28,009 bases of DNA, taken from the IMG/VR virus record IMGVR_UViG_3300006638_000019, positions 1 through 28,009 of that record. One strand, written 5' to 3'. Position 1 is the first letter of the stretch, and each line of letters begins with the position of its first letter. The translations under genes were made by a program, and so were the position numbers. This DNA comes from a virus. The notes below the pieces were generated by a model. The model was not told the origin of the DNA, did not search any database, and saw only the letters and a program-made list of their open reading frames with translations. Shown piece by piece: positions 1,756 to 12,004 of the stretch.

Positions 1756-4020
1756 TCAGGCCGCCTCTTCTACTGCGGCCTCCTTCGCTATCCTGTAGAC
1801 TGTCTTTGGCCTTCCTCTGCCTTCATCCACCAGTCTTTCTGTATCCAGCACCTCCTGTTCAATGAGGCTATTTATAATCTCGTCTAGGTCACGCTTCTTT
1901 AGCTTCCTGAACTTACGCATGATATCCCTGCGCCCCATACTCCCTCCTGCCTCTTTAATGGCATTTAGCACCTCGTTATTCCCCTCTTCCTGGGGTGTCT
2001 CACTCATATGCCCTTGGGCCAGGGTTGTCAGGTATTCTATGGAGGACTCAACAATCATCTGGCCTATATCAAAATCAAGGGGTTCAAACTCCGGCTGCTT
2101 TCTATTGCGTGCTATCGCAAAGATCATGGCTATCTTTACAGTGTTTTCAAACAGGCGATCCCAAAGATGCCTGAATGGGGAATTCTCTCCTACTTTGTCT
2201 ACCTGCTTGCATTGGATGGCATAGCGGATCTCGTCACACTCTCCCCATTTTATAGTGACAGGATCCGGGGCCACCGTAGATGAGTTCACAATCTCGCCAA
2301 TACTACTGCCGAATTTAGCAGAGAAGTTTCCCCATCTTTTTACCAAATCATCGTCTAGCTGGTATTCCGGCATTTCCTTGTTAGGATATTCTTTGTCATT
2401 GCGCGCCTTGATGACCACGAACCGGTTAAGCTCTCCGCTTTCTATGGCAGACTTTCGCAGCGCCTTGACGTAGGTTTCCTCCGTGCTGGTGCCGTAGATG
2501 CAGAGATTGGGAGCCTGGATGATTATCGGGGTTGTTCGTGCATCGGCATAATCTCCGTGATTGTAGACACTGTTGGAAGCGCTGTAGAGTTTAAGAAGTA
2601 TCTTGGCCTGAGCGCGAATGTAATGCGGACTTTTCTCATTCGACAGACCCTGGAGAAAAAGGCCGAACTCATCAAGCATCATAAGCTGGCTGGAATTGTT
2701 CATCAGCCCGCGCAGCATTCCAGCGTCAGAGCGTATATCGTCTGCCCCTATGCGCTCATCTAAGCCTGCGGCATGCGCCAATTCTTTCATTGCCTTGCGG
2801 CTGGCGTCTTTTCCGGCCCCTGTTGAGGCAATACCAACCGTGTAGAGATTGGTGCGCGTGTTGAGAGGGGACGCATACCGGCGACCGAAGACAGCCCCGG
2901 CAAAGGCTAGTGTATTCAGCAGGGCAAGCTCTGGCTGCTTACGAATGGCATATTTGGCAATCCACCTCACCGTGTCACCAATCAGTCCCGGCACTTCCAT
3001 CGCATTGAAACCAAGAAGTGGAATATGCTTCTTTATAGCCACTGGCCTTATGATAAGTTGCTGTGCCTTTTTCACCAGCGGTTGGATATTGGATATATCG
3101 ACAGCTTCGCGTTCCTGTACCGCTGGCTTCCAGCCGTGGAGCTGGGCAGCATGAACAAGAGTCCCCATGGTGATCCCGTGATTGGGGTCAAACCCATGCC
3201 AGCGTTTTTCACAATCACCGTTCTGAAACTTACTTCCCGTTCTGCTCCATGCGTCCCAGATTGAAAGCGGGAAACCGCCCGAGTGAATGGCCATGCCAAT
3301 CTCGACCCATTCCTGATAAGTTATATCGGGGTCAAGAACATCCAGCATCTTTTGCACATCTTCGCGCATCCATTCAGAGCGAGCGCCGGTTGAATGATCT
3401 GCTTTTAAAGGCTCTATCTCCTCCTTCTTTTTTGTCTGCACCATGTCCAGTAGCCATTGTGGAGCTGCTATAGTATTTTGTGCACTGGTTTCTGTTAGCT
3501 CGTAATAAGTGCCGGACACATGGCGGCTTGGCACAGCAACGACATATCCATTATTTCCGCGTATATCAATTCCTTGCATTAGGTTTGTGCGGTTGCCGAT
3601 TTGTAGGCCAACCGGGTAAGCGAACCAGATATGGACTCCACCGCCTCCGGTCTTGACAATCACCGTCGGCTCAAATTCTCCGTATGTCTGGGATAATTTA
3701 TCGAGTGATTCAAAGCCGCCCTTTTTTCCGTCAATATCGACGGCGAAAAAGCCGGAAATTTCTCCGGTGATTAAGCCCAAGTTGAGGTCTGAACGATAAT
3801 TAAATAATCTAGCGATTTTCTCAATATCATTGCTCGCGTCTTTCAAGCCATGCTTGGTAAATGGATGTTTTCCCTGTGAACGGCAATCTGGGTTTCCGCA
3901 CGTGCACTTTAAGTCTGCGGTGATGCCATGCAGCGGGATGACGTAGCTGGTCTTGGCATAGGCAGCCGCGTATCGCCCGATAGATGAGGCAAGCCACGCC
4001 GCTGAAAGCGCGTCATCCAT
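1756..4020 (-). CDS. primase-polymerase / helicase-like fusion protein, 754 aa
   Basis: The N-terminal half is a bifunctional primase-polymerase (Prim-Pol, PF09250 type). It has a Cys cluster C39/C41/C46 with GKHP, the catalytic pair D95-x-D97 (FFAVDIDG), a GGGGVHIW motif with H130 and a third acidic motif near D152. Residues about 215-298 match PriCT-2. Residues about 340-600 resemble DUF3987 helicase-like ATPases, with a P-loop at 396-405 (GIASTGAGKD) and a Walker B LMMLDEFG at 446-453. The C-terminal about 80 residues look like a winged helix. It should prime, and perhaps extend, DNA at replication forks. ATG 4020 is preferred over GTG 4026 because GGGAG (4028-4032) is seven bases away. 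It lies 15 bp after the small regulator gene, in the same operon and on the strand opposite the rest of the replication genes. Confidence 0.92.
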   Translation of the reverse strand: MDDALSAAWLASSIGRYAAAYAKTSYVIPLHGITADLKCTCGNPDCRSQGKHPFTKHGLKDASNDIEKIARLFNYRSDLNLGLITGEISGFFAVDIDGKKGGFESLDKLSQTYGEFEPTVIVKTGGGGVHIWFAYPVGLQIGNRTNLMQGIDIRGNNGYVVAVPSRHVSGTYYELTETSAQNTIAAPQWLLDMVQTKKKEEIEPLKADHSTGARSEWMREDVQKMLDVLDPDITYQEWVEIGMAIHSGGFPLSIWDAWSRTGSKFQNGDCEKRWHGFDPNHGITMGTLVHAAQLHGWKPAVQEREAVDISNIQPLVKKAQQLIIRPVAIKKHIPLLGFNAMEVPGLIGDTVRWIAKYAIRKQPELALLNTLAFAGAVFGRRYASPLNTRTNLYTVGIASTGAGKDASRKAMKELAHAAGLDERIGADDIRSDAGMLRGLMNNSSQLMMLDEFGLFLQGLSNEKSPHYIRAQAKILLKLYSASNSVYNHGDYADARTTPIIIQAPNLCIYGTSTEETYVKALRKSAIESGELNRFVVIKARNDKEYPNKEMPEYQLDDDLVKRWGNFSAKFGSSIGEIVNSSTVAPDPVTIKWGECDEIRYAIQCKQVDKVGENSPFRHLWDRLFENTVKIAMIFAIARNRKQPEFEPLDFDIGQMIVESSIEYLTTLAQGHMSETPQEEGNNEVLNAIKEAGGSMGRRDIMRKFRKLKKRDLDEIINSLIEQEVLDTERLVDEGRGRPKTVYRIAKEAAVEEAA

Positions 4021-4035
4021 AGGCACGCTCCCATG

Positions 4036-4185
4036 CTATTTAGAGTTTTTATTTTTCTGCTTTATTTCGAGAAGAAGTTCAGTCAGGATGCTGCTGGCAG
4101 ATCGGCGCTTGACTTTAGCCAGTGAGTCAATCCACTTTACGAGGTCCGGCGCAAGGCAATAACACTTTGAAACAACTTTTCTCAT
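4036..4185 (-). CDS. ribbon-helix-helix (CopG/Arc-like) regulator, 49 aa
   Basis: This gene is easily missed because of its size. ATG at 4185 (complement) is preceded by CAGGAG at about 4194-4199, and TAG is at 4036-4038. The product reads MRKVVSKCYCLAPDLVKWID, then SLAKVKRRSASSILTELLLE. That is a short beta-strand, an amphipathic helix (DLVKWIDSLAKVKR), the S-x-S turn and a second helix, the classic ribbon-helix-helix order. Family members bind operator DNA as dimers. It stands at the head of the leftward operon, 15 bp before the primase gene and right next to the symmetric divergent promoter region. By inference it regulates one or both of those promoters and its own expression. Confidence 0.75.
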   Translation of the reverse strand: MRKVVSKCYCLAPDLVKWIDSLAKVKRRSASSILTELLLEIKQKNKNSK

Positions 4186-4215
4186 GACTGCTTTTTCTCC
4201 TGATTAAAATAATTA

Positions 4216-4244
4216 TTGACATTACATAACCGCTACATTATGGT
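4216..4244 (+). promoter_or_regulatory. sigma70-type promoter for the rightward replication operon
   Basis: TTGACA at 4216-4221 is a perfect -35 box. It is followed by a 17-bp spacer and TATGGT at 4239-4244. Transcription would start near 4251 and run into the gene at 4293 (ribosome-binding site AAGGAG at about 4280). The -10 box overlaps the -10 box of the leftward promoter by two bases, so the two are unlikely to be occupied together. An inverted repeat CATAA (4225-4229) and TTATG (4238-4242) overlies the core and is a candidate operator. Confidence 0.7.
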
Positions 4245-4263
4245 ATGCAGACTGATTAGTCAA
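4235..4263 (-). promoter_or_regulatory. sigma70-type promoter for the leftward regulator-primase operon
   Basis: On the complement, TTGACT (4263-4258), a 17-bp spacer and TAATGT (4240-4235) make a good promoter that starts near 4229 and reads into the ribbon-helix-helix gene at 4185. It is a mirror image of the rightward promoter: both -35 boxes and both -10 boxes are symmetric about 4239.5. Confidence 0.65.
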
Positions 4264-4292
4264 TAACATTCTTTAAACCAAGGAGCCACGCC

Positions 4293-4736
4293 ATGACCAA
4301 TACCGCACCAGACCTTACCAAGCTTAGTGATGCAGATATCATCGACCACCTATTAGCAGCAGAGGCAGATAAAACGGCTGCAGATTTAGCTTGCAAGAAG
4401 CTGAAAAACGAGATTCTCAATCGCAAGGCGGCTGAAATTCATGCTGCTTATACCGCAAAGCCGGAGCCGTTCGGCACCATTAACCTGCCAGTTGGCGGAA
4501 AGAACGTCAAGATAGACTCCCCGAAAAAAGTTGAGTGGTCGCAGGACATACTTGAAGCCCTGTGGAAGCAGATGGTGGCTGATGGTGCCGACCCCAAGCA
4601 GTACATCAAGATTGAATACAATGTCAGCGAAACGCTGTTTAAGTCGTGGGGCGACAATCTTAAAGCCTTCTTCATCCCTGCACGTACCGTGAAGGCCGGC
4701 AATCCGAGTGTGAAAATTGAGGAGGCGAAGGAATAG
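4293..4736 (+). CDS. conserved phage protein of unknown function, 147 aa
   Basis: ATG 4293 follows AAGGAGCCACGCC, a good ribosome-binding site. The N-terminal third is a charged helix (DADIIDHLLAAEADKTAADL..., KKLKNEILNRKAAEI), perhaps a coiled coil. The C-terminal part is alpha/beta, with VEWSQDILEALWKQMVADGA and a closing FFIPARTVKAGNPSVKIEE. From memory, proteins with this last pattern (pARTVK.G.p...i) sit next to exonuclease and Sak4-like genes in many proteobacterial phages, but I know of no function. It is the first gene of the rightward operon. The next gene starts two bases after its stop, so the pair is translated together. Confidence 0.8.
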   Translation: MTNTAPDLTKLSDADIIDHLLAAEADKTAADLACKKLKNEILNRKAAEIHAAYTAKPEPFGTINLPVGGKNVKIDSPKKVEWSQDILEALWKQMVADGADPKQYIKIEYNVSETLFKSWGDNLKAFFIPARTVKAGNPSVKIEEAKE

Positions 4737-4738
4737 TT

Positions 4739-5335
4739 ATGGAAATAATGGTAGATATTGAAACACTTGGCACAGACAATAATGCGGTTATTACTTCAAT
4801 CGGGGCGGTGGCATTTGATCTGTCTGCGCTGGAAACTGTTGAGGAGATTCTTGGGCGACCGTACTTTCACATGCATCTTAACGCCCACATGCAACAAGCT
4901 GACGGAAGGCAAATTTCAGCCGCCACCTCTATGTGGTGGATGGAGCAGAATCCCGTCGCTATAAAAACATTGCTTGATGGACAAAAAGCTATTGCCAAGG
5001 GTATCTCTGTCGCAGCAGCGCTCGAAGCTTTCTCAATATGGTGCAGTAACAACAAGGCTGCGAATATCTGGGGTAACGGCAATACGTTTGACAACATGCT
5101 TCTGCGCGATATCTATGCACAATACAAAGTGAAGTACCCCGTATCGTTTAGAAACGACTTGGATTTTCGCACGCTTAAATATCTGGTGAAGACCATCGAT
5201 CCCACATGGAAGGTGCCGTACCCAAAGTACGGCGAGTTCAAAGATACTGCTCATGTCGGGCATGTCGATGCGGCTTGCCAAGCCTACTCTGCCCAAAGAA
5301 TATGGGCGAAACTTAACAATAAGGAAATAGTATAA
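4739..5335 (+). CDS. DEDDh-type 3'-5' exonuclease, 198 aa
   Basis: The three exonuclease motifs are present. Motif I is MVDIETLG with D6 and E8. Motif II is WGNGNTFDN with D118. Motif III is TAHVGHVDAAC, in which H172-x4-D177 fits the DEDDh pattern. Length and internal motifs (ATSMWWMEQNP, LDFRTLKYL) resemble the DexA / Rv2179c-like exonucleases (PF16473 type). Family members degrade single-stranded DNA or RNA from the 3' end using two metal ions. In this operon it probably trims ends for recombination or removes nucleic acid during replication. Its stop overlaps the next start (TAATG), so it is coupled to the Sak4-like gene. Confidence 0.88.
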   Translation: MEIMVDIETLGTDNNAVITSIGAVAFDLSALETVEEILGRPYFHMHLNAHMQQADGRQISAATSMWWMEQNPVAIKTLLDGQKAIAKGISVAAALEAFSIWCSNNKAANIWGNGNTFDNMLLRDIYAQYKVKYPVSFRNDLDFRTLKYLVKTIDPTWKVPYPKYGEFKDTAHVGHVDAACQAYSAQRIWAKLNNKEIV

Positions 5336-6168
5336 TGTCAATTTCACTCGCATCTATCCAAAAATCGCTTAATGTTTCCCCACCCAGACTGTTAATTTAT
5401 GGGGTACAGGGTATAGGAAAAACTGAGTTTTGCTCCAATGCGCCAAATCCTGTTTTTGTTCTTACCGAGGACGGACTTGGAAAAAACGGAGTTGATGCAT
5501 TTCCGCTTTCAAAAAATCTTGAAGATGTGATGAATTGTTTTAGTTCTTTGGCCGTAGAACAGCATAATTTCAAGACACTTGTGTTAGACAGCCTTGATTG
5601 GCTAGAGCCTTTTGTGCAAGCAAAGGTTTGCGAAACACAAAAAGTTAAAACAATAGAAAATATACCATACGGCAAGGGGTTTGTGATGGCCATGGATTTC
5701 TGGCGGGAATATATAGCTGCCATAAACTACCTCAGAGATGAGAAGGGAATGATGATAATACAGACAGCACACTCAGAAATTAAGCGCTTTGAGTCGCCTG
5801 AATCTGATAGTTATGATCGATACCAAATAAAACTTCACAAATCTGCCGCTGCTTTAATTCAAGAACATTCTGACTGTGTTTTATTTGCTAATTATCGAAC
5901 ATCAATCACAGAAGAAGACCTTGGATTTAAACAGACGAGAACAAGAGCTGTGGGTAGCGGTAACAGAGTTCTGTATACTCAAGAAATGCCAACTCATAGT
6001 GCCAAGAACCGCTACAGCCTGCCGCCGCAGATTGAAGTCAAAGACCCTAACTGGCAGGATGTCTGGGGTGTGCTTGCAAACAATATCCCGTGGTTCAAGC
6101 AGTTTTCAATTCCCGTGCCTACACCCGAACAAACCAAAAACATAGCAACCGCAATCAAAGGAGACTAA
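5335..6168 (+). CDS. Sak4-like RecA-fold ATPase (AAA_24 family), 277 aa
   Basis: The P-loop is GVQGIGKTE (residues 23-31) and the Walker B is TLVLDSLDWLE with D85. The order of motifs, the length and the phrase PRLLIYGVQGIGKT are typical of the phage AAA_24 / Sak4 group, compact RecA-core proteins that help single-strand annealing and recombination with a partner ssDNA-binding protein. That partner is encoded immediately downstream. The FKQTRTRAVGSGNRVLYTQ segment and DSYDRYQIKLHK are family-like. The start overlaps the exonuclease stop. Its base composition is more AT-rich than that of the following gene, which may indicate separate histories. Confidence 0.85.
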   Translation: MSISLASIQKSLNVSPPRLLIYGVQGIGKTEFCSNAPNPVFVLTEDGLGKNGVDAFPLSKNLEDVMNCFSSLAVEQHNFKTLVLDSLDWLEPFVQAKVCETQKVKTIENIPYGKGFVMAMDFWREYIAAINYLRDEKGMMIIQTAHSEIKRFESPESDSYDRYQIKLHKSAAALIQEHSDCVLFANYRTSITEEDLGFKQTRTRAVGSGNRVLYTQEMPTHSAKNRYSLPPQIEVKDPNWQDVWGVLANNIPWFKQFSIPVPTPEQTKNIATAIKGD

Positions 6169-6170
6169 AC

Positions 6171-6722
6171 ATGGCTAATATCGGACTCGATACCACACAA
6201 TACAATCGTACAGCACCAGCAGGCGGACCACTTCCTCCCGCCGTATACACTATGACCGTTGTTCGTTCTCAGTCCAAGGAGACAAACGACAAGCAGGGTG
6301 TGTACGTTGAGGTGGAGTTTGACGTAGCCGGAACCAACCGCAAGTTCTGGGACCGCTTTAATATCATCAATAAGAATCCGAAGGCACAGCAGATTGGCCG
6401 TGAAGGGGTTTCCGATTTGGCCAAGGCTGCCGGTATCAATGGCGTTCTGAACGATGACCAGGACCTGCTTGGCAAGACGGTACAAGGACGCCTCATTGTG
6501 AAGCCTTCCGATAATCCGCAGTATCCCGAGCCGAAGAACGAATGCCGGAAGTATTATCCGGTTGGTGTGGATGCCGAGGCTGAGGACAGGAAGGCGAAGG
6601 GCGGAACGCCTGCTCAGGCGTCCGCCGCACCGGCAAAGGCCAACTGGAACACGGCTGGCACTCCTGCCGCTGAACCTGTGGCCGCACCGGCTCCTGCGGG
6701 AACTGCGCCGTGGAAGCGGTAA
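6171..6722 (+). CDS. DUF669-type phage single-stranded-DNA-binding protein, 183 aa
   Basis: AAAGGAG (about 6158-6164) precedes ATG 6171. An upstream in-frame ATG at 6090 lies inside the previous gene and is rejected. The N-terminus (ANIGLDTTQYNRTAPAGGPL) followed by VYTMTVVRSQSKETNDKQG and YVEVEFDVAGTNRKFWDRF is the DUF669 (PF05037) pattern, an OB-fold-like domain. From about residue 140 the tail is low-complexity Ala/Pro (AEPVAAPAPAGTAPWKR). The usual acidic SSB tip is missing and the end is basic. Members coat ssDNA and work with Sak4/Redbeta/Erf-type annealing systems, which matches its neighbour. Confidence 0.85.
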   Translation: MANIGLDTTQYNRTAPAGGPLPPAVYTMTVVRSQSKETNDKQGVYVEVEFDVAGTNRKFWDRFNIINKNPKAQQIGREGVSDLAKAAGINGVLNDDQDLLGKTVQGRLIVKPSDNPQYPEPKNECRKYYPVGVDAEAEDRKAKGGTPAQASAAPAKANWNTAGTPAAEPVAAPAPAGTAPWKR

Positions 6723-6730
6723 TTAGGAAT

Positions 6731-6836
6731 CCTCGCAAGAGGTGAGGCTACGGGTTACTTAGACGCGGAGGGTTGCTATCGACATGTAGACAGCTTATCG
6801 GCGGCAGAGGCGGTCACTGCATTGTCACCCGTAGCC
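6731..6836 (+). ncRNA. candidate structured RNA between the SSB gene and the next gene
   Basis: This noncoding stretch starts with a CCTC-GCAA-GAGG hairpin (6731-6742), a four-pair stem closed by a GNRA tetraloop. It is followed by a perfect 10-bp pairing of GGCTACGGGT (6746-6755) with ACCCGTAGCC (6827-6836). Inside the long loop, smaller hairpins are possible (GCTATC...GACAGC near 6775-6794, and GCAG...CTGC near 6804-6820). A short T-run (AATTTTTC) follows the stem. It could be a leader element acting on the gene at 6856, a processed small RNA or a weak terminator. I do not match it to a named class. Confidence 0.4.
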
Positions 6837-6855
6837 AATTTTTCAAAGGAAGTTT

Positions 6856-7242
6856 ATGTCCATCCACTCCACTATCCAAGCCCTCTATGCCATCGCTTGC
6901 GAGGCCCAGAAAGAACCGTCCGATACCATGAAAACATTGCTTCGCACCATCTCCGACGGCGATGTGAGCAAGTCCGTTTCCGAGCTTGAATGGCTTATGG
7001 CAGAGCTGGCTGCAATAAATAGCAATCTCAAGGGAATGTATATACTCCATTACACAACCGGGACGGACAGGGATAACAAGCACGTGCTGTTTCAGACCGA
7101 AGTTGTGTTCGGAAATCAGACGATAAAATTCACCACGCAGTTTGACGAGAAGGCGACACAAAGCCTGATCGAGGCATTGGGCATGTCTCTGGCCATGGTG
7201 AAGGCCGGGGATAAGCTAAGCCAGAAAGAGGGGAATGCGTGA
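6856..7242 (+). CDS. hypothetical phage protein, 128 aa
   Basis: AAAGGAAG precedes ATG 6856 with good spacing. The N-terminal half looks all-helical (HSTIQALYAIACEAQKEPSD, VSKSVSELEWLMAELAAINS). The second half begins with beta-strands (MYILHYTTGTDRDNKHVLFQTEVVFGNQTIKF split across strands) and ends in a helix rich in Ala/Leu. There are no catalytic motifs or membrane spans. It follows the candidate structured RNA and overlaps the next gene by TGATG, so it continues the rightward operon. I do not recognise the family. Confidence 0.75.
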   Translation: MSIHSTIQALYAIACEAQKEPSDTMKTLLRTISDGDVSKSVSELEWLMAELAAINSNLKGMYILHYTTGTDRDNKHVLFQTEVVFGNQTIKFTTQFDEKATQSLIEALGMSLAMVKAGDKLSQKEGNA

Positions 7243-7490
7243 TGAGAGCATTTAGCAGAGACGAGAAGATGAATATTCTTGAATTTTTTTGCCTCGTTTG
7301 TGACCATGACACGGTGGTAACTCTAGCGAGGAAAAGTGATGGCAGATTAGGCCCGACAGAAATAGGACCTACAACGAAGCGACTGATAAAGGAAATTTGG
7401 AAGGAGTTTGTAAAAAACCATGTTTCGCTTGATGATAACATCGCCATTACAAAAGAAGAAAAAGAGTGGATAGAAGGAGAAGGCGCGTGA
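7242..7490 (+). CDS. small hypothetical protein, 82 aa
   Basis: ATG 7242 overlaps the preceding stop (TGATG). A GTG at 7239 is also possible. The product (MRAFSRDEKMNILEFFCLVC, then DHDTVVTLARKSDGRLGPTE...) is charged, and its C-terminal half is predicted helical and acidic (TKEEKEWIEGEGA). A C-x-x-C-x-H segment (FCLVCDHD) is present but without partner ligands. Its end overlaps the start of the Fe-S nuclease gene (GTGA), which suggests tight co-expression. Function is unknown. Confidence 0.65.
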   Translation: MRAFSRDEKMNILEFFCLVCDHDTVVTLARKSDGRLGPTEIGPTTKRLIKEIWKEFVKNHVSLDDNIAITKEEKEWIEGEGA

Positions 7491-8449
7491 CAATTCTATC
7501 CTCTGTATTGGCTACAGATCCGACCTTAGCCGCATGCGATGCAGCCCTTGAGGCCAAGGCAGCGCAGGAGAAGCCGAGAGCATATTTAGGGATGTCGTCT
7601 ATCGGGGAAAGCTGCGCACGCAAGACGTGGTACAGATTCCGGTTTGCCATGAGAGAGAAGTTTGATGTGGCTACACTCAAGAGGTTTGCAGACGGCCATC
7701 GCACGGAAGAGCTTGTTATCGAACGTCTGCGGCTATTGGATGGTATAACACTTGTCAGCCATAACAAGGATGGCAGTCAGATAGGTTACAAAGACCATGA
7801 TGGACATTTCAGCGGACACCTTGATGGGGATATTCTTGGTATATTGCAAGCTCCGAAGACAAAACATGTCCTTGAGGTTAAGTGCTGTTCAGAAAAGAAG
7901 TTCAATGAGCTTAAAAAGGCCGTTGCTGAATTGGGCGAGAAGCAGGCGCTGAAGAAATGGAATCCGGTTTATTATACTCAAGCGCAATGCTATCTCGCAT
8001 ATCACAATTGTACGCGCCATTATCTTGTGGTGGCAACCCCCGGTGGGCGTGACTGGATGGGGGTGCGCACGGAGTATGATGCGGCTCATGCTATTCAGGC
8101 TGTGGCCAAGGCCAAACACATAATCCAAAGCAGCGAACCTTTGGACAAGATAAGCAACGACCCGTCCTATTTTGAATGCCGCTATTGCTCGTTTTCGCCG
8201 GTATGCCATGGCGGGGATATGCCTGACCGTTCCTGTCGGACTTGTACCCACAGTTCGCCGGTAGCTCAGGGAATGTGGCATTGTCAAAGATTTGGAAAGC
8301 AGCTTACGCTGGATGAGCAGATTGCAGGCTGTCCAGCTCACATCTTTTTAAAAACTCTGGTGCCGGGAGAGGTGATAGATGCTGACGAGTCTTCGATAAC
8401 TTATAAATTGAAATCCGGTGCTATCTGGAAGGATAGCGAAGTGAAATGA
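7487..8449 (+). CDS. Cas4-like PD-(D/E)XK nuclease with Fe-S cluster and extra zinc module, 320 aa
   Basis: GTG 7487 overlaps the previous stop and has GAAGGAG about eight bases upstream. The nuclease core shows D113 (GHLDGDI), E130-x-K132 (HVLEVKC) and a downstream Q motif (YYTQAQCYL). One cysteine near the N-terminus (C43, SCARKTW) and three after the core (C231-x2-C234-x5-C240, CRYCSFSPVC) follow the split four-Cys layout of Cas4/AddB-type 4Fe-4S nucleases. A further Cys quartet (C250, C253, C266, C282) forms a zinc-like module that recurs in the small protein at 10895. It likely resects DNA ends for the Sak4/SSB annealing system, just ahead of the helicase gene. Confidence 0.85.
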   Translation: MTILSSVLATDPTLAACDAALEAKAAQEKPRAYLGMSSIGESCARKTWYRFRFAMREKFDVATLKRFADGHRTEELVIERLRLLDGITLVSHNKDGSQIGYKDHDGHFSGHLDGDILGILQAPKTKHVLEVKCCSEKKFNELKKAVAELGEKQALKKWNPVYYTQAQCYLAYHNCTRHYLVVATPGGRDWMGVRTEYDAAHAIQAVAKAKHIIQSSEPLDKISNDPSYFECRYCSFSPVCHGGDMPDRSCRTCTHSSPVAQGMWHCQRFGKQLTLDEQIAGCPAHIFLKTLVPGEVIDADESSITYKLKSGAIWKDSEVK

Positions 8450-8640
8450 TGTGGAACCCTATGAATACAGCCCCAGCAGATGGAACCGTTGTTATTGGGA
8501 AATGCAAGGATTGTGAAATAGAAATCCTTTTCACTAATAATCATTGGGTGCATCCCTATGGACGAATTAATGGAATGATTGGTTTGGTTTTGAGTGAAGA
8601 GTATCAACCAAGCGGCTGGAGGAAACTAGATGATGCCTGA
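8446..8640 (+). CDS. small DUF551-like protein, 64 aa
   Basis: The start is ATGATG at 8446, overlapping the nuclease stop. The N-terminal MMWNPMNTAPADGTVVIGKC and the C-terminal YQPSGWRKLDDA match the general pattern of DUF551-type phage proteins (W.pM.tAP.dG... then a terminal W..L). These are short beta-rich proteins of unknown role that are common in phage early operons. It overlaps the helicase start by about 11 bp. Recognition is from memory of the pattern, so the family name is moderately sure and the function is not known. Confidence 0.7.
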   Translation: MMWNPMNTAPADGTVVIGKCKDCEIEILFTNNHWVHPYGRINGMIGLVLSEEYQPSGWRKLDDA

Positions 8641-10237
8641 TCTTCTCAGCCCAACTCCAGCCCGGAAAATTCTGCGAGACTATCAGTCCGATGCTGTCTC
8701 TTCGATATTCGCCTATTTCGGTAAGAAGAAGGGCAATCCGCTCGTAGTCATCCCGACTGCTGGCGGCAAGAGCCTTATTATTGCCGATTTCATTTCTCAG
8801 GCATACACCCTCTACCCGAACACCCGTGTAACCCTCGTTTCGCACGTCTCCGAGCTGATTGTCCAGAATGCTCAGGAACTCGCAGAATATTGTCCGCATC
8901 TGCGCATCAGCTTTTGCAGCGACAAACTCGGCAGCAAGGATCTGTCCGGCGATGTGGTTATGGGAACCATACAGAGCATGTATAAGCGTGCCTTCAAATA
9001 TCAGAATGCGCCAGATATATTGCTTATCGACGAAGCGCATTTGCTGTCACCGACCGATGACACCATGTACCGTCGCTTCATTGAGGAGCTTAAAATCATC
9101 AATCCTCATTTGAAAGTGGTGGGATTCACTGCAACCCCATTTCGCACCAATCATGGCTATCTGCATAAGGGAAAGAACAGGCTGTTCACCGATATTTGCT
9201 ATGAAATCGGCATCATTGACCTTATCAATCGCGGATACCTTGTCCCGCTTATCACCCCGACAGTCCAGACCCGCATGGATGTTCATGGTGTAAAGATGAG
9301 CGGTGGTGATTATGTTGCGGGAGAACTTGAGCGCGCAGTCGATGTCGATATGCTCACGCGCGCATGTGTACGTGAGATAATCGAGTTTGGGCAGGCACGC
9401 AAGAAGTGGCTTATTTTCACGGCGGGTATAAATCATTGCCTGCATGTGCGTGATGAAATCCGGAAGTACAATATCAACTGCGAGATGGTGACTGGCGAAA
9501 CACCGACCGAAGAACGAAATTCCATTCTATCGCGCTTTAAGAGCGGCGATGTGCAGTGCGTGGTCAACGTGATGGTACTGACCACTGGTTTTAATAACCC
9601 ATCAATAGATTTGATGGCCTTCATGCGTCCTACGCGCTCGCCTGTGTTGTATATACAAACTGCCGGACGTGGCATGCGGCTTGCGCCAGAAAAAAGCGAT
9701 TGTTTGCTTTTGGATTTTGGTTTGGTCGTTGAGGCCCTCGGGCCGATCGACCATGTTCATGTTAAGGAGAAGAAACCCGGTAAGGGGCAGGCCCCCGTCA
9801 AATACTGCCCGGAGTGCGGGGCGGAATGCTTTGCAGGGGTGGCCGAATGCCCGGACTGTGGATATAAATGGCCGCCGCATGAGCTGGAAATTGAGAAGGA
9901 GGCGTCCAGCGCCGCCGTCCTCTCCACCCAGCTCCAGACCGAAACACACGATGTCCAGTCCGTGTTTTATTATCGCCACACCAAGGAAGGGCGTCCTGAC
10001 TCCCTGCGTATAGAGTACCTTTGTGGTCCCACGAAGTCTTTCAGGCAGTGGAAGCTATTTGAGCACGCTGGCAGGCTCAGGGAAGACGCCTGTGCATGGT
10101 GGAGGGTGCATTCCAGCACTACACCACCAAACAACATTACAGAGGCCCTGGCACGCTCTGGCGAGCTTAAGAAGCCGCATAAGGTGGATGTCAGACGAGT
10201 GGGCAAGTATTTTAACATAGTGAGGGAGGAGTTGTGA
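8630..10237 (+). CDS. SF2 DEAD/DEAH-box helicase with zinc ribbon, 535 aa
   Basis: ATG 8630 follows GGAGG with good spacing. The helicase motifs are in order: LRDYQSDAV (Q-like), PTAGGKS (42-48, P-loop), DEAH (134-137), GFTATPFR (about 165-172), then in domain 2 ALTTGFN-like VLTTGFNNPSID and the arginine-finger motif QTAGRGMR. After the helicase core there is a zinc ribbon (CPECGAECFAGVAECPDCGY) and a C-terminal domain of about 110 residues with SVFYYRHTKEGRPDSLRIEY. The order resembles phage SF2 helicases that unwind branched or forked DNA. It is placed after the nuclease and before the methyltransferase. Confidence 0.92.
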   Translation: MMPDLLSPTPARKILRDYQSDAVSSIFAYFGKKKGNPLVVIPTAGGKSLIIADFISQAYTLYPNTRVTLVSHVSELIVQNAQELAEYCPHLRISFCSDKLGSKDLSGDVVMGTIQSMYKRAFKYQNAPDILLIDEAHLLSPTDDTMYRRFIEELKIINPHLKVVGFTATPFRTNHGYLHKGKNRLFTDICYEIGIIDLINRGYLVPLITPTVQTRMDVHGVKMSGGDYVAGELERAVDVDMLTRACVREIIEFGQARKKWLIFTAGINHCLHVRDEIRKYNINCEMVTGETPTEERNSILSRFKSGDVQCVVNVMVLTTGFNNPSIDLMAFMRPTRSPVLYIQTAGRGMRLAPEKSDCLLLDFGLVVEALGPIDHVHVKEKKPGKGQAPVKYCPECGAECFAGVAECPDCGYKWPPHELEIEKEASSAAVLSTQLQTETHDVQSVFYYRHTKEGRPDSLRIEYLCGPTKSFRQWKLFEHAGRLREDACAWWRVHSSTTPPNNITEALARSGELKKPHKVDVRRVGKYFNIVREEL

Positions 10238-10473
10238 GAAAATATAAGCCACGTGAAGGCATCGCTTTGCCGAAGAAAGCTCCAAAAACTTATTATATGA
10301 AATGGGATAAGGATAATTTTGGCCTTGCATGGCTACCAAACTCAGGCGGCGTATGTTTGGTGCTAAGAAGCGATGACGGCGATGAAATGTTTATGGAATT
10401 TAATGTGTCTCAAGTAGAGAAAATTATAGCCATGCTGTCAGATTCCCCATGGCGCGTGGAGATGAAAAAATGA
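10234..10473 (+). CDS. small hypothetical protein, 79 aa
   Basis: GTG 10234 overlaps the helicase stop (GTGA), with GGGAGGA just upstream. The product starts MRKYKPREGIALPKKAPKTY and continues as a small alpha/beta domain (NFGLAWLPNSGGVCLVLRSD, then an acidic strand and a final helix FNVSQVEKIIAMLSDSPW). There are no known motifs. The next gene starts four bases before its stop (ATGA), so the three genes are translationally coupled. Family and function are unknown. Confidence 0.7.
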   Translation: MRKYKPREGIALPKKAPKTYYMKWDKDNFGLAWLPNSGGVCLVLRSDDGDEMFMEFNVSQVEKIIAMLSDSPWRVEMKK

Positions 10474-10898
10474 TCAACAAAGCCCTTTATTCCAGCGCTA
10501 AAGACGATTGGGAAACGCCCCAATGGTTATTCGATGAATATAGCGACCGATTTGATTTCACGGTTGATGTATGCGCCAGCAAGAAGAACGCGAAGGTGTC
10601 CCATTTCTTTAATAAGAAGCAGAACGGACTTAAACAGCCATGGGATGGGCATCGGGTGTGGTGCAACCCGCCTTATGGACGCAATTCAACCGGCCTGTGG
10701 GTTAAGAAAGCGCACCTCGAAGTGCAGGCCGGAGAATGCCAATTGGTTGCCATGCTTCTACCGGCCAGAACCGATACGAAGTGGTTTCACGACTATATTT
10801 ACCGGCAACATAATATTGAGTTTTTACGTGGCCGCTTAAGATTTGTTGGCGCTCCTCACTCAGCACCATTTCCTAGTATGGTGGTGATATTCCGATGA
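10470..10898 (+). CDS. phage DNA N6-adenine methyltransferase (Dam-type), 142 aa
   Basis: ATG 10470 overlaps the upstream stop, with GGAG about nine bases before. An earlier ATG at 10449 lacks a site. The catalytic motif NPPYG (66-70, WCNPPYGR) and the N-terminal YSSAKDDWETPQWLFDEY plus FTVDVCASKKNAK match the phage DNA N-6-adenine-methyltransferase family (PF05869 type). Members transfer a methyl group from S-adenosylmethionine to adenine, usually to evade restriction or mark phage DNA. It is on the short side for the family, but both ends look intact. Confidence 0.88.
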   Translation: MINKALYSSAKDDWETPQWLFDEYSDRFDFTVDVCASKKNAKVSHFFNKKQNGLKQPWDGHRVWCNPPYGRNSTGLWVKKAHLEVQAGECQLVAMLLPARTDTKWFHDYIYRQHNIEFLRGRLRFVGAPHSAPFPSMVVIFR

Positions 10899-11104: not shown

Positions 11105-11289
11105 AATGGCAGCGTGAGAGGCTGTTTGTGAGGACATCATTTATTGTTCGCACCGACCACATTGCAATGGCCTGCGGCTGCTGGATGGGTGCCAAGCATA
11201 ACACCGACAACCTGCGAGGAATGCTCGCAATCCGTGTTGGCTTTCTGGCGTCTACTATCAACGCGCTTTACGAGCTTCTAGGGGTGTGA
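11071..11289 (+). CDS. small hypothetical protein, 72 aa
   Basis: ATG 11071 has AAGGATG upstream and overlaps the zinc-module gene by 34 bp. The product begins MGLRSTQPRVLEWQRERLFV and has a helix containing HIAMACGCWMGAKHN and a C-terminal helix (LAIRVGFLASTINALYELLGV) that is quite hydrophobic but too polar at its start to be called a membrane span. It is the last gene of the rightward operon and overlaps the end of the convergent RusA gene by 32 bp. Function is unknown. Confidence 0.55.
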   Translation: MGLRSTQPRVLEWQRERLFVRTSFIVRTDHIAMACGCWMGAKHNTDNLRGMLAIRVGFLASTINALYELLGV

Positions 11290-11611
11290 TCTCTATATAC
11301 ACCCCTTCGATATCATCCCATTCTACGATGTAATGGTGTATCCACGAGTCATCGGCTATGACACCCTCGTGGACCATGAGATCGTCGGGGGCTTTAATGA
11401 AATTACAGATGTCACGGATTCTGGCGTCAGGGCGTCCGAACCTGTAATGGGCCTGTAGCGGGATTTTCCCTAGCGGGGTGAATGGTTGGCTCCGCAACGC
11501 ATTGCGAGCTTCAATCTCCCATCGCACGTATCGCTTGCTCTTGTAGCGCCTCCCCCTCCCGGCATATAAAACGTTTACTGACGGCGGGAAGGGGAGGACG
11601 ATGATGGTCAC
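11258..11611 (-). CDS. rusA: RusA-like Holliday junction resolvase, 117 aa
   Basis: The N-terminal FPPSVNVLYAG is the RusA signature and is followed by a basic patch (RGRRYKSKRYVRW). The catalytic region reads PDARIRDICNFIKAPDDLMV, then HEGVIADDSWI. RusA dimers cut four-way junctions after binding them. In the classic family the segment is D-x-D-N...K...DD. Here D67, N70, K73 and D87/D88 are present but the second aspartate of the D-x-D pair is Cys69. GTG 11611 overlaps the stop of the upstream coiled-coil gene (GTGA). There is no strong ribosome-binding site of its own, so translation is probably coupled. It likely resolves branched DNA before packaging. Confidence 0.87.
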   Translation of the reverse strand: MTIIVLPFPPSVNVLYAGRGRRYKSKRYVRWEIEARNALRSQPFTPLGKIPLQAHYRFGRPDARIRDICNFIKAPDDLMVHEGVIADDSWIHHYIVEWDDIEGVYIEITPLEARKAR

Positions 11612-11751
11612 GCCACGTCGCTTTTACGGGTTAAGGCGCGCAAGGCGTTGATGTCTGACTGTAATATGGCTACCTGCTGTTCAAGCTTCTTGAGCCTGTT
11701 CTCCGTTGTCGGAAGCTCGCTGAGAGTAGTTGATTTTTCGATTGGCTGCAT
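11608..11751 (-). CDS. small coiled-coil protein coupled to RusA, 47 aa
   Basis: ATG 11751 (complement) follows AAGGAGGATTT, the best ribosome-binding site in the region. The 47-residue product (MQPIEKSTTLSELPTTENRL, then KKLEQQVAILQSDINALRAL) has a clear heptad pattern over residues 18-40, so it probably forms a short parallel or antiparallel coiled coil. It ends with SDVA and overlaps the RusA start by four bases. I do not recognise a family. It may be a partner of the resolvase or a small regulator. The coupling and strong translation signal argue that it is real. Confidence 0.72.
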   Translation of the reverse strand: MQPIEKSTTLSELPTTENRLKKLEQQVAILQSDINALRALTRKSDVA

Positions 11752-11760
11752 AAATCCTCC

Positions 11761-11807
11761 TTGACTTATTATAAGATGACCGTATTCTTCTGGTTATGAA
11801 CTGTCAA
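11761..11807. promoter_or_regulatory. candidate overlapping divergent promoters between RusA operon and 11819 gene
   Basis: Complement strand: TTGACA (11807-11802), 17-bp spacer, TACGGT (11784-11779), pointing to the coiled-coil/RusA genes. Plus strand: TTGACT (11761-11766), 16-bp spacer, TATTCT (11783-11788), pointing to the small gene at 11819. The -35 boxes are excellent and the -10 boxes are weak. A perfect TATAAT on the complement at 11773-11768 is 28 bp from the -35, too far to pair with it. The layout copies that at 4216-4263. Confidence 0.4.
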
Positions 11808-11818
11808 TAAAAAAAGTG

Positions 11819-12004
11819 ATGGCACGGAGGCCAAAGAAACCTCTAAAATACCCCGAAGACACGAGAGCCGAATGGCCCGTGATTGATTCCTACACCACCA
11901 AAGACGGCCTGTTTATCAAGGTATATCGGATTGGTTTTGCCTTGACAGGAATGCGCGGGTACACAGCAAAACCGACGACAAGGCCGCGCAATTTCAGCCC
12001 TTAA
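11819..12004 (+). CDS. possible small basic protein, 61 aa
   Basis: The frame reads MARRPKKPLKYPEDTRAEWP and continues with DGLFIKVYRIGFALTGMRGY and a basic tail (TAKPTTRPRNFSP). It is the only gene candidate between the endolysin stop and the RusA operon. A plus-strand promoter-like pair (11761/11783) lies upstream. Against it, there is no ribosome-binding site before ATG 11819 (an A-run precedes it), and it overlaps the end of the convergent endolysin gene by 11 bp. If translated, it may be a small basic nucleic-acid-binding protein. Confidence 0.4.
   Translation: MARRPKKPLKYPEDTRAEWPVIDSYTTKDGLFIKVYRIGFALTGMRGYTAKPTTRPRNFSP

Follow-up and report, generated by a model that had tools for sequence, protein, structure and literature searches.

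The window, i.e., the whole stretch of viral DNA that was analyzed (28,009 nucleotides), contains a 107-bp intergenic region at positions 4186-4292 from which two operons are read in opposite directions. This raises the question of how both operons are controlled from so short a segment, and whether the small gene at its left border encodes the regulator. Our best reading, which is based on the sequences and which we hold to be probable though far from assured, is that a small autorepressor acts here and governs a regulon with at least two sites.

Overlapping promoters between two opposed operons

The gene content on both sides is as the initial annotation had claimed, namely, a leftward ribbon-helix-helix (RHH)-like gene with the primase, and a rightward recombination operon:

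1756-4026, minus strand: primase (Prim-Pol + PriCT_2 + DUF3987), downstream of the regulator gene with a gap of 9 bp
4036-4185, minus strand: gene of the putative 49-residue RHH-like regulator (pN far below pS in three phages; predicted fold)
4293-4736, plus strand: gene that opens the rightward recombination operon (phrog_2480, DUF7173-like)
4739-10898, plus strand: remainder of the rightward operon (exonuclease, Sak4-like ATPase, SSB-like protein, Cas4-type exonuclease, helicase, Dam-type methylase)

The gene for the Dam-type adenine methyltransferase is located at 10449-10898, after the helicase gene. Relatives of the DUF7173-like gene are present in the Acidithiobacillus phage AcaML1 (L019) and the Synechococcus phage Ssp-JY40 (L020), in both cases directly downstream of annotated regulators (excisionase/transcriptional regulator; HTH-XRE and CII).

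The intergenic region is predicted to be a shared control region with two overlapping back-to-back promoters of the sigma70 type, a prediction that belongs to the best explanation as a whole and shares its fair degree of confidence. The following motifs were found:

4216-4221, plus strand: rightward -35 box TTGACA, conserved in both relatives
4239-4244, plus strand: rightward -10 box TATGGT, which is TATAGT in both relatives
4258-4263, minus strand: leftward -35 box TTGACT, conserved in both relatives
4235-4240, minus strand: leftward -10 box TAATGT, at a spacing of 17 bp
4237-4242, minus strand: alternative leftward -10 box CATAAT, at a spacing of 15 bp, which is TATAAT in both relatives

The pairs TTGACA-17-TATGGT (+) and TTGACT-17-TAATGT (-) had been described as mirror images about 4239.5 with -10 boxes that overlap by 2 bp, and the motifs, the symmetry center, and the overlap were all recovered when they were checked by position. 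The rightward promoter agrees with the consensus at 10 of 12 positions and the leftward promoter at 8 of 12, which makes the latter weak by motif. The leftward -10 box TAATGT matches at three of six positions, with the first T, the A, and the last T present, and CATAAT is the better leftward -10 box. Judged from the motif positions, the leftward transcript would start at 4228-4230, and the two divergent starts would be 21-23 bp apart. Bacterial bidirectional promoters have been described as a class with opposed starts at a distance of 7-25 bp and a reciprocal overlap of the -10 elements (PMC10268837). The present pair resembles this class in the overlapping -10 motifs and in the predicted distance of the starts, which falls within that range, but it differs from it in having a good -35 box for each direction and an apparent operator over one of them.

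When the whole window was shuffled 60 times with dinucleotides preserved, 13 of the shuffles had at least one overlapping promoter pair with equal spacers and equal quality, as would be expected if the promoter-like motifs were due to chance. By the same criterion, such a pair occurred in 0.4% of the shuffles of the 107-bp intergenic region alone. The bare motif pair is not rare by itself, but it is unlikely at 4186-4292. A chance origin is unconvincing because the motifs are exactly conserved in two diverged related phages; together with the recurrence at a second junction, described below, this makes it extremely improbable.

The 49-residue protein and its relatives

A near-identical contig (L002) agrees with the window at 99.8% over 10.3 kb. 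In a relative of 66 kb (L011/G001), where the protein is 71% identical, and in one of 26 kb (L023/G003), where it is about 75% identical, the small gene has an equivalent location and likewise precedes the primase gene. All full-length relatives of the primase that were found have the RHH-like gene and the site described below; the 49-residue gene itself is represented by three independent lineages only. A megablast search with the first 12 kb of the window against phage records gave no match, no relative of the RHH-like and DUF7173-like proteins was detected among genome contigs, and the best E-value of the 49-residue protein against phages and plasmids was about 0.7.

In the three phages, pS of the small gene is close to saturation (0.69-0.84), and pN is 0.07-0.13. 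The low pN relative to pS identifies the open reading frame as a genuine gene on which purifying selection acts. RHH proteins have a strand-helix-helix fold with a length of about 45-50 residues, and their dimers insert a two-stranded sheet into the major groove of DNA. The AlphaFold2 monomer has two confident helices (residues 13-26 and 30-48) and a less certain N-terminal segment without an assigned strand. The rows returned by Foldseek and VIA-align were mostly RHH proteins, i.e., CopA(SO), MatP, PutA, Arc, CopG, and ParD. The Z values are moderate (up to 5.8), and the agreement among the rows is a stronger argument for the RHH fold than the values themselves. Pfam and PHROG contained no family match, which weighs little because RHH families are short and divergent. 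Matches by sequence in the PDB were weak and spurious, and were discarded. The RHH protein that had been proposed to lie beside the promoters is thus encoded by a genuine gene, is RHH-like by the fold of the predicted monomer, and is a probable DNA-binding repressor. The designation as a phage switch is without support in the sense of a lysis-lysogeny decision, as a search for a tyrosine integrase (PF00589) gave no match in five related, possibly incomplete records.

A candidate operator and its copies

The promoters owe their mirror symmetry to a perfect inverted repeat of 8 bp, TTATTGAC at 4213-4220 and GTCAATAA at 4259-4266, with a spacer of 38 bp. An 8-bp inverted repeat with a spacer of 20-50 was obtained in none of 100 shuffles, and any 8-bp repeat with a spacer of up to 60 in 6% of the shuffles of the AT-rich intergenic region alone. 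The arrangement TTATTGAC-N38-GTCAATAA has been kept exactly in two relatives despite the near-saturated synonymous sites of the 49-residue gene: among the three phages, 16 of 16 positions in the two arms are invariant, compared to 52 of 64 in the core (4205-4268) and 4 of 19 in the flank (4186-4204). Both -35 boxes, the loss of which in relatives had been named as an observation that would speak against the proposed control region, have been retained. A search of viral contigs with this arrangement gave 22 stretches, among which only the three RHH-bearing contigs were meaningful; most of the others lie within long reading frames. An Rfam search over the segment found nothing. The inner repeat CATAA-N8-TTATG, also noticed initially, is indeed present at 4225-4242, but it is not kept: the right arm is TTATA in both relatives, and the left arm is AATAA in one. 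As the repeat is changed in both relatives, it was ruled out as the operator.

With the gene calls used here, the window contains one other divergent junction, at 11752-11815. In an alignment of all twelve arms, one arm per junction could be extended into a longer common site, i.e., TTATTGACATTACATAACC at 4213-4231 (+) and TTATTGACAGTTCATAACC at 11810-11792 (-), which are identical at 17 of 19 positions. The features concerned are:

4213-4230, plus strand: proposed full operator TTATTGACATTACATAAC, a shared site that covers the rightward -35 box
4259-4266, minus strand: right arm of the mirror dyad, a half-site only, over the leftward -35 box
11258-11751, minus strand: genes read leftward from the second junction (47-aa ORF, then RusA-type resolvase)
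11761-11807: overlapping divergent promoters of the second junction, with the dyad TTGAC-N37-GTCAA
11793-11810, minus strand: second proposed operator TTATTGACAGTTCATAAC, a shared site that covers the leftward -35 box of the second junction
11816-12004, plus strand: rightward 62-aa ORF of the second junction
62194-62211 of the 66-kb relative: third copy of the proposed operator, over a TTGACA-16-TATGAT promoter that precedes a small-gene operon

Within the window, the 19-bp site has a single further copy, which is the one at the second junction. The best of 500 shuffles reached 16 of 19 positions, and the observed 17 of 19 was reached in none. The consensus TTATTGACANTNMATAAC is an 18-bp pseudo-palindrome, palindromic at 10-14 of 16 positions, and it is close to TTATTG-N5-CAATAA with half-site centers 11 bp apart. 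The Arc operator of phage P22 likewise has two half-sites about 11 bp apart.

Both relatives carry the site at both junctions. In the window and the 66-kb relative, the two junctions have C at position 13 of the operator, whereas both have A in the 26-kb relative. Such a concerted change would be expected if one protein reads both sites, and it concerns a single position only. The third copy in the 66-kb relative agrees with the first site of that phage at 17 of 19 positions, which was equaled in 1 of 300 shuffles of that stretch; weaker sites at 60234, 60429, 60965, 64711, and 65423 lie partly within coding sequence and were not counted. Just before the third copy (L077, i.e., positions 55000-66105 of the 66-kb relative), a 202-aa gene with no Pfam match encodes a protein whose N-terminus, MSNKLIRVDDDVHARIAKLADVNNKSAGEVV, looks RHH/CopG-like by eye.

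The spacing of the dyad at the second junction, N37, is identical in both relatives. The overlapping promoter pair is conserved there as well. TTGAC-N34..42-GTCAA is confined to the two divergent junctions in the window and in the 26-kb relative, and the 66-kb relative has three further, unrelated-looking matches.

All full sites include TTGACA, and a -10-like hexamer is found at a distance of 15-17 bp; bidirectional promoters are common in bacteria (PMC10268837). The shared words might, therefore, simply be the early-promoter style of this phage group, with an extended -35 region and AT-rich flanks that RNA polymerase or some unknown factor recognizes, while the RHH-like protein acts elsewhere. 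We consider this unlikely, as the site is pseudo-palindromic, follows the RHH gene across relatives, and includes an ATAAC part that is conserved although it falls inside the promoter spacer. Recognition by sigma70 does not lead one to expect such conservation in a spacer. The likely operator is the 18-bp site over the stronger, rightward -35 box, and neither the mirror dyad nor CATAA-N8-TTATG. Another phage protein or a host protein could also read it. The promoter motifs, the shared site, the conservation, the concerted change, and the co-occurrence of site and gene are all features of the sequences themselves.

Proposed regulation and comparison with known systems

From these features we infer the transcription starts, the binding, and the repression together with its direction. 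The 49-residue protein and the primase would both be expressed from the leftward promoter, the weaker of the two, and the protein would bind to the operator TTATTGACANTNMATAAC, covering the rightward -35 box and its own start region. Because the full site at 4213-4230 extends from the rightward -35 box to the predicted leftward start, occupancy should hinder both promoters, and binding would lower transcription of the recombination operon as well as of its own RHH-primase operon (autorepression). In the unoccupied region, polymerase would be shared in proportion to promoter strength, in favor of the rightward operon, because it cannot occupy both promoters together. Further targets of the protein would be the second overlapping pair (47-aa ORF/RusA versus 62-aa ORF) and the promoter under the third copy of the site in the 66-kb relative.

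The initial annotation had proposed a one-regulator toggle. In a true toggle, repression of the strong rightward promoter by the protein would release or activate the overlapping leftward promoter of its own gene, and two exclusive expression states would result. The promoters are indeed unequal in strength, the full site lies over the strong -35 box only, and RcoLS20 of the Bacillus subtilis plasmid pLS20 is reported to work in this way at overlapping divergent promoters, with an initial stimulation of its own promoter (PMC4207663). However, a site that reaches the predicted leftward start should hinder that promoter too, the mutual exclusion of polymerase does not by itself provide memory, and the same site at the RusA junction suits a regulon better than a dedicated toggle. 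We thus regard a toggle as improbable, and repression of both promoters as the more economical reading of a site that covers both regions. Nor does the region appear to be a single-site switch, since the regulator probably also acts at the RusA resolvase/62-aa gene pair. The similarity to pLS20 comprises unequal overlapping divergent promoters, a regulator made from the weaker one, and an operator over the pair, but Rco has been described as tetrameric, with DNA looping and conjugation genes as targets (PMC4207663), in contrast to a 49-aa RHH-like phage protein. A toggle of the pLS20 type, with early stimulation of the regulator's own promoter, is possible but is not indicated here.

Some plasmid RHH proteins function in replication control or partition, and the adjacent primase and the A+T content of the core (about 72%) would also fit a role of the AT-rich dyad as an origin of replication or as a partition site to which the RHH protein binds. 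This is very unlikely, as the site recurs at the RusA junction and before a small-gene operon, an iteron array was not seen, and the changes in skew at 4.2 kb, which track gene direction, are modest.

The proposed autorepressor can be compared with several known RHH proteins. It resembles the immI region of P22 (Arc, Mnt, ant) in that a phage RHH protein of about 50 residues is the proposed regulator of a nearby divergent control region, and Arc is among the many fold matches. However, P22 has two regulators, in contrast to one that is cotranscribed with the primase, the genes under control here would be those for recombination and the resolvase, no antirepressor gene was seen, and no sequence similarity was detected. 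Size and predicted fold are shared with CopG and with CopA(SO)/ParD-type repressors, which, in contrast, have roles in plasmid copy control or as antitoxins; a neighboring toxin gene was not seen here. The ingredients, i.e., small phage RHH repressors, bidirectional promoters, and overlapping divergent control regions, are known, and no description of this protein group, operator, and target set was found in the collections and literature searched. More tentatively, and with less confidence than is needed for a firm proposal, the protein may represent a new family of phage RHH regulators of about 50 residues that run a multi-promoter regulon (at least three sites in the 66-kb genome) and coordinate primase, recombination, and resolvase genes via superimposed divergent promoters, thereby balancing opposed operons. 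An uncultured phage group gains a concrete, testable control circuit with a very small regulator, a defined candidate operator, and named target operons.

In distant relatives (L005/L016, L015, and L017), a Cro/C1-type (XRE-type) HTH gene is divergent from the same operon:

L005, 3716-4000: XRE-type HTH gene in the RHH slot
L015, 344-625: XRE-type HTH gene in the RHH slot
L017, 3614-3892: XRE-type HTH gene in the RHH slot

The 18-bp site was searched for in three records of distant relatives and is absent apart from one match with three mismatches in G004. Because the HTH gene occupies the slot where the site is missing, the slot seems to be a regulator position, and the site seems to be tied to the RHH-like gene. 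The replacement of an RHH-like by an XRE-type regulator at the same slot would be a neat example of how regulators can be exchanged while the control point stays fixed.
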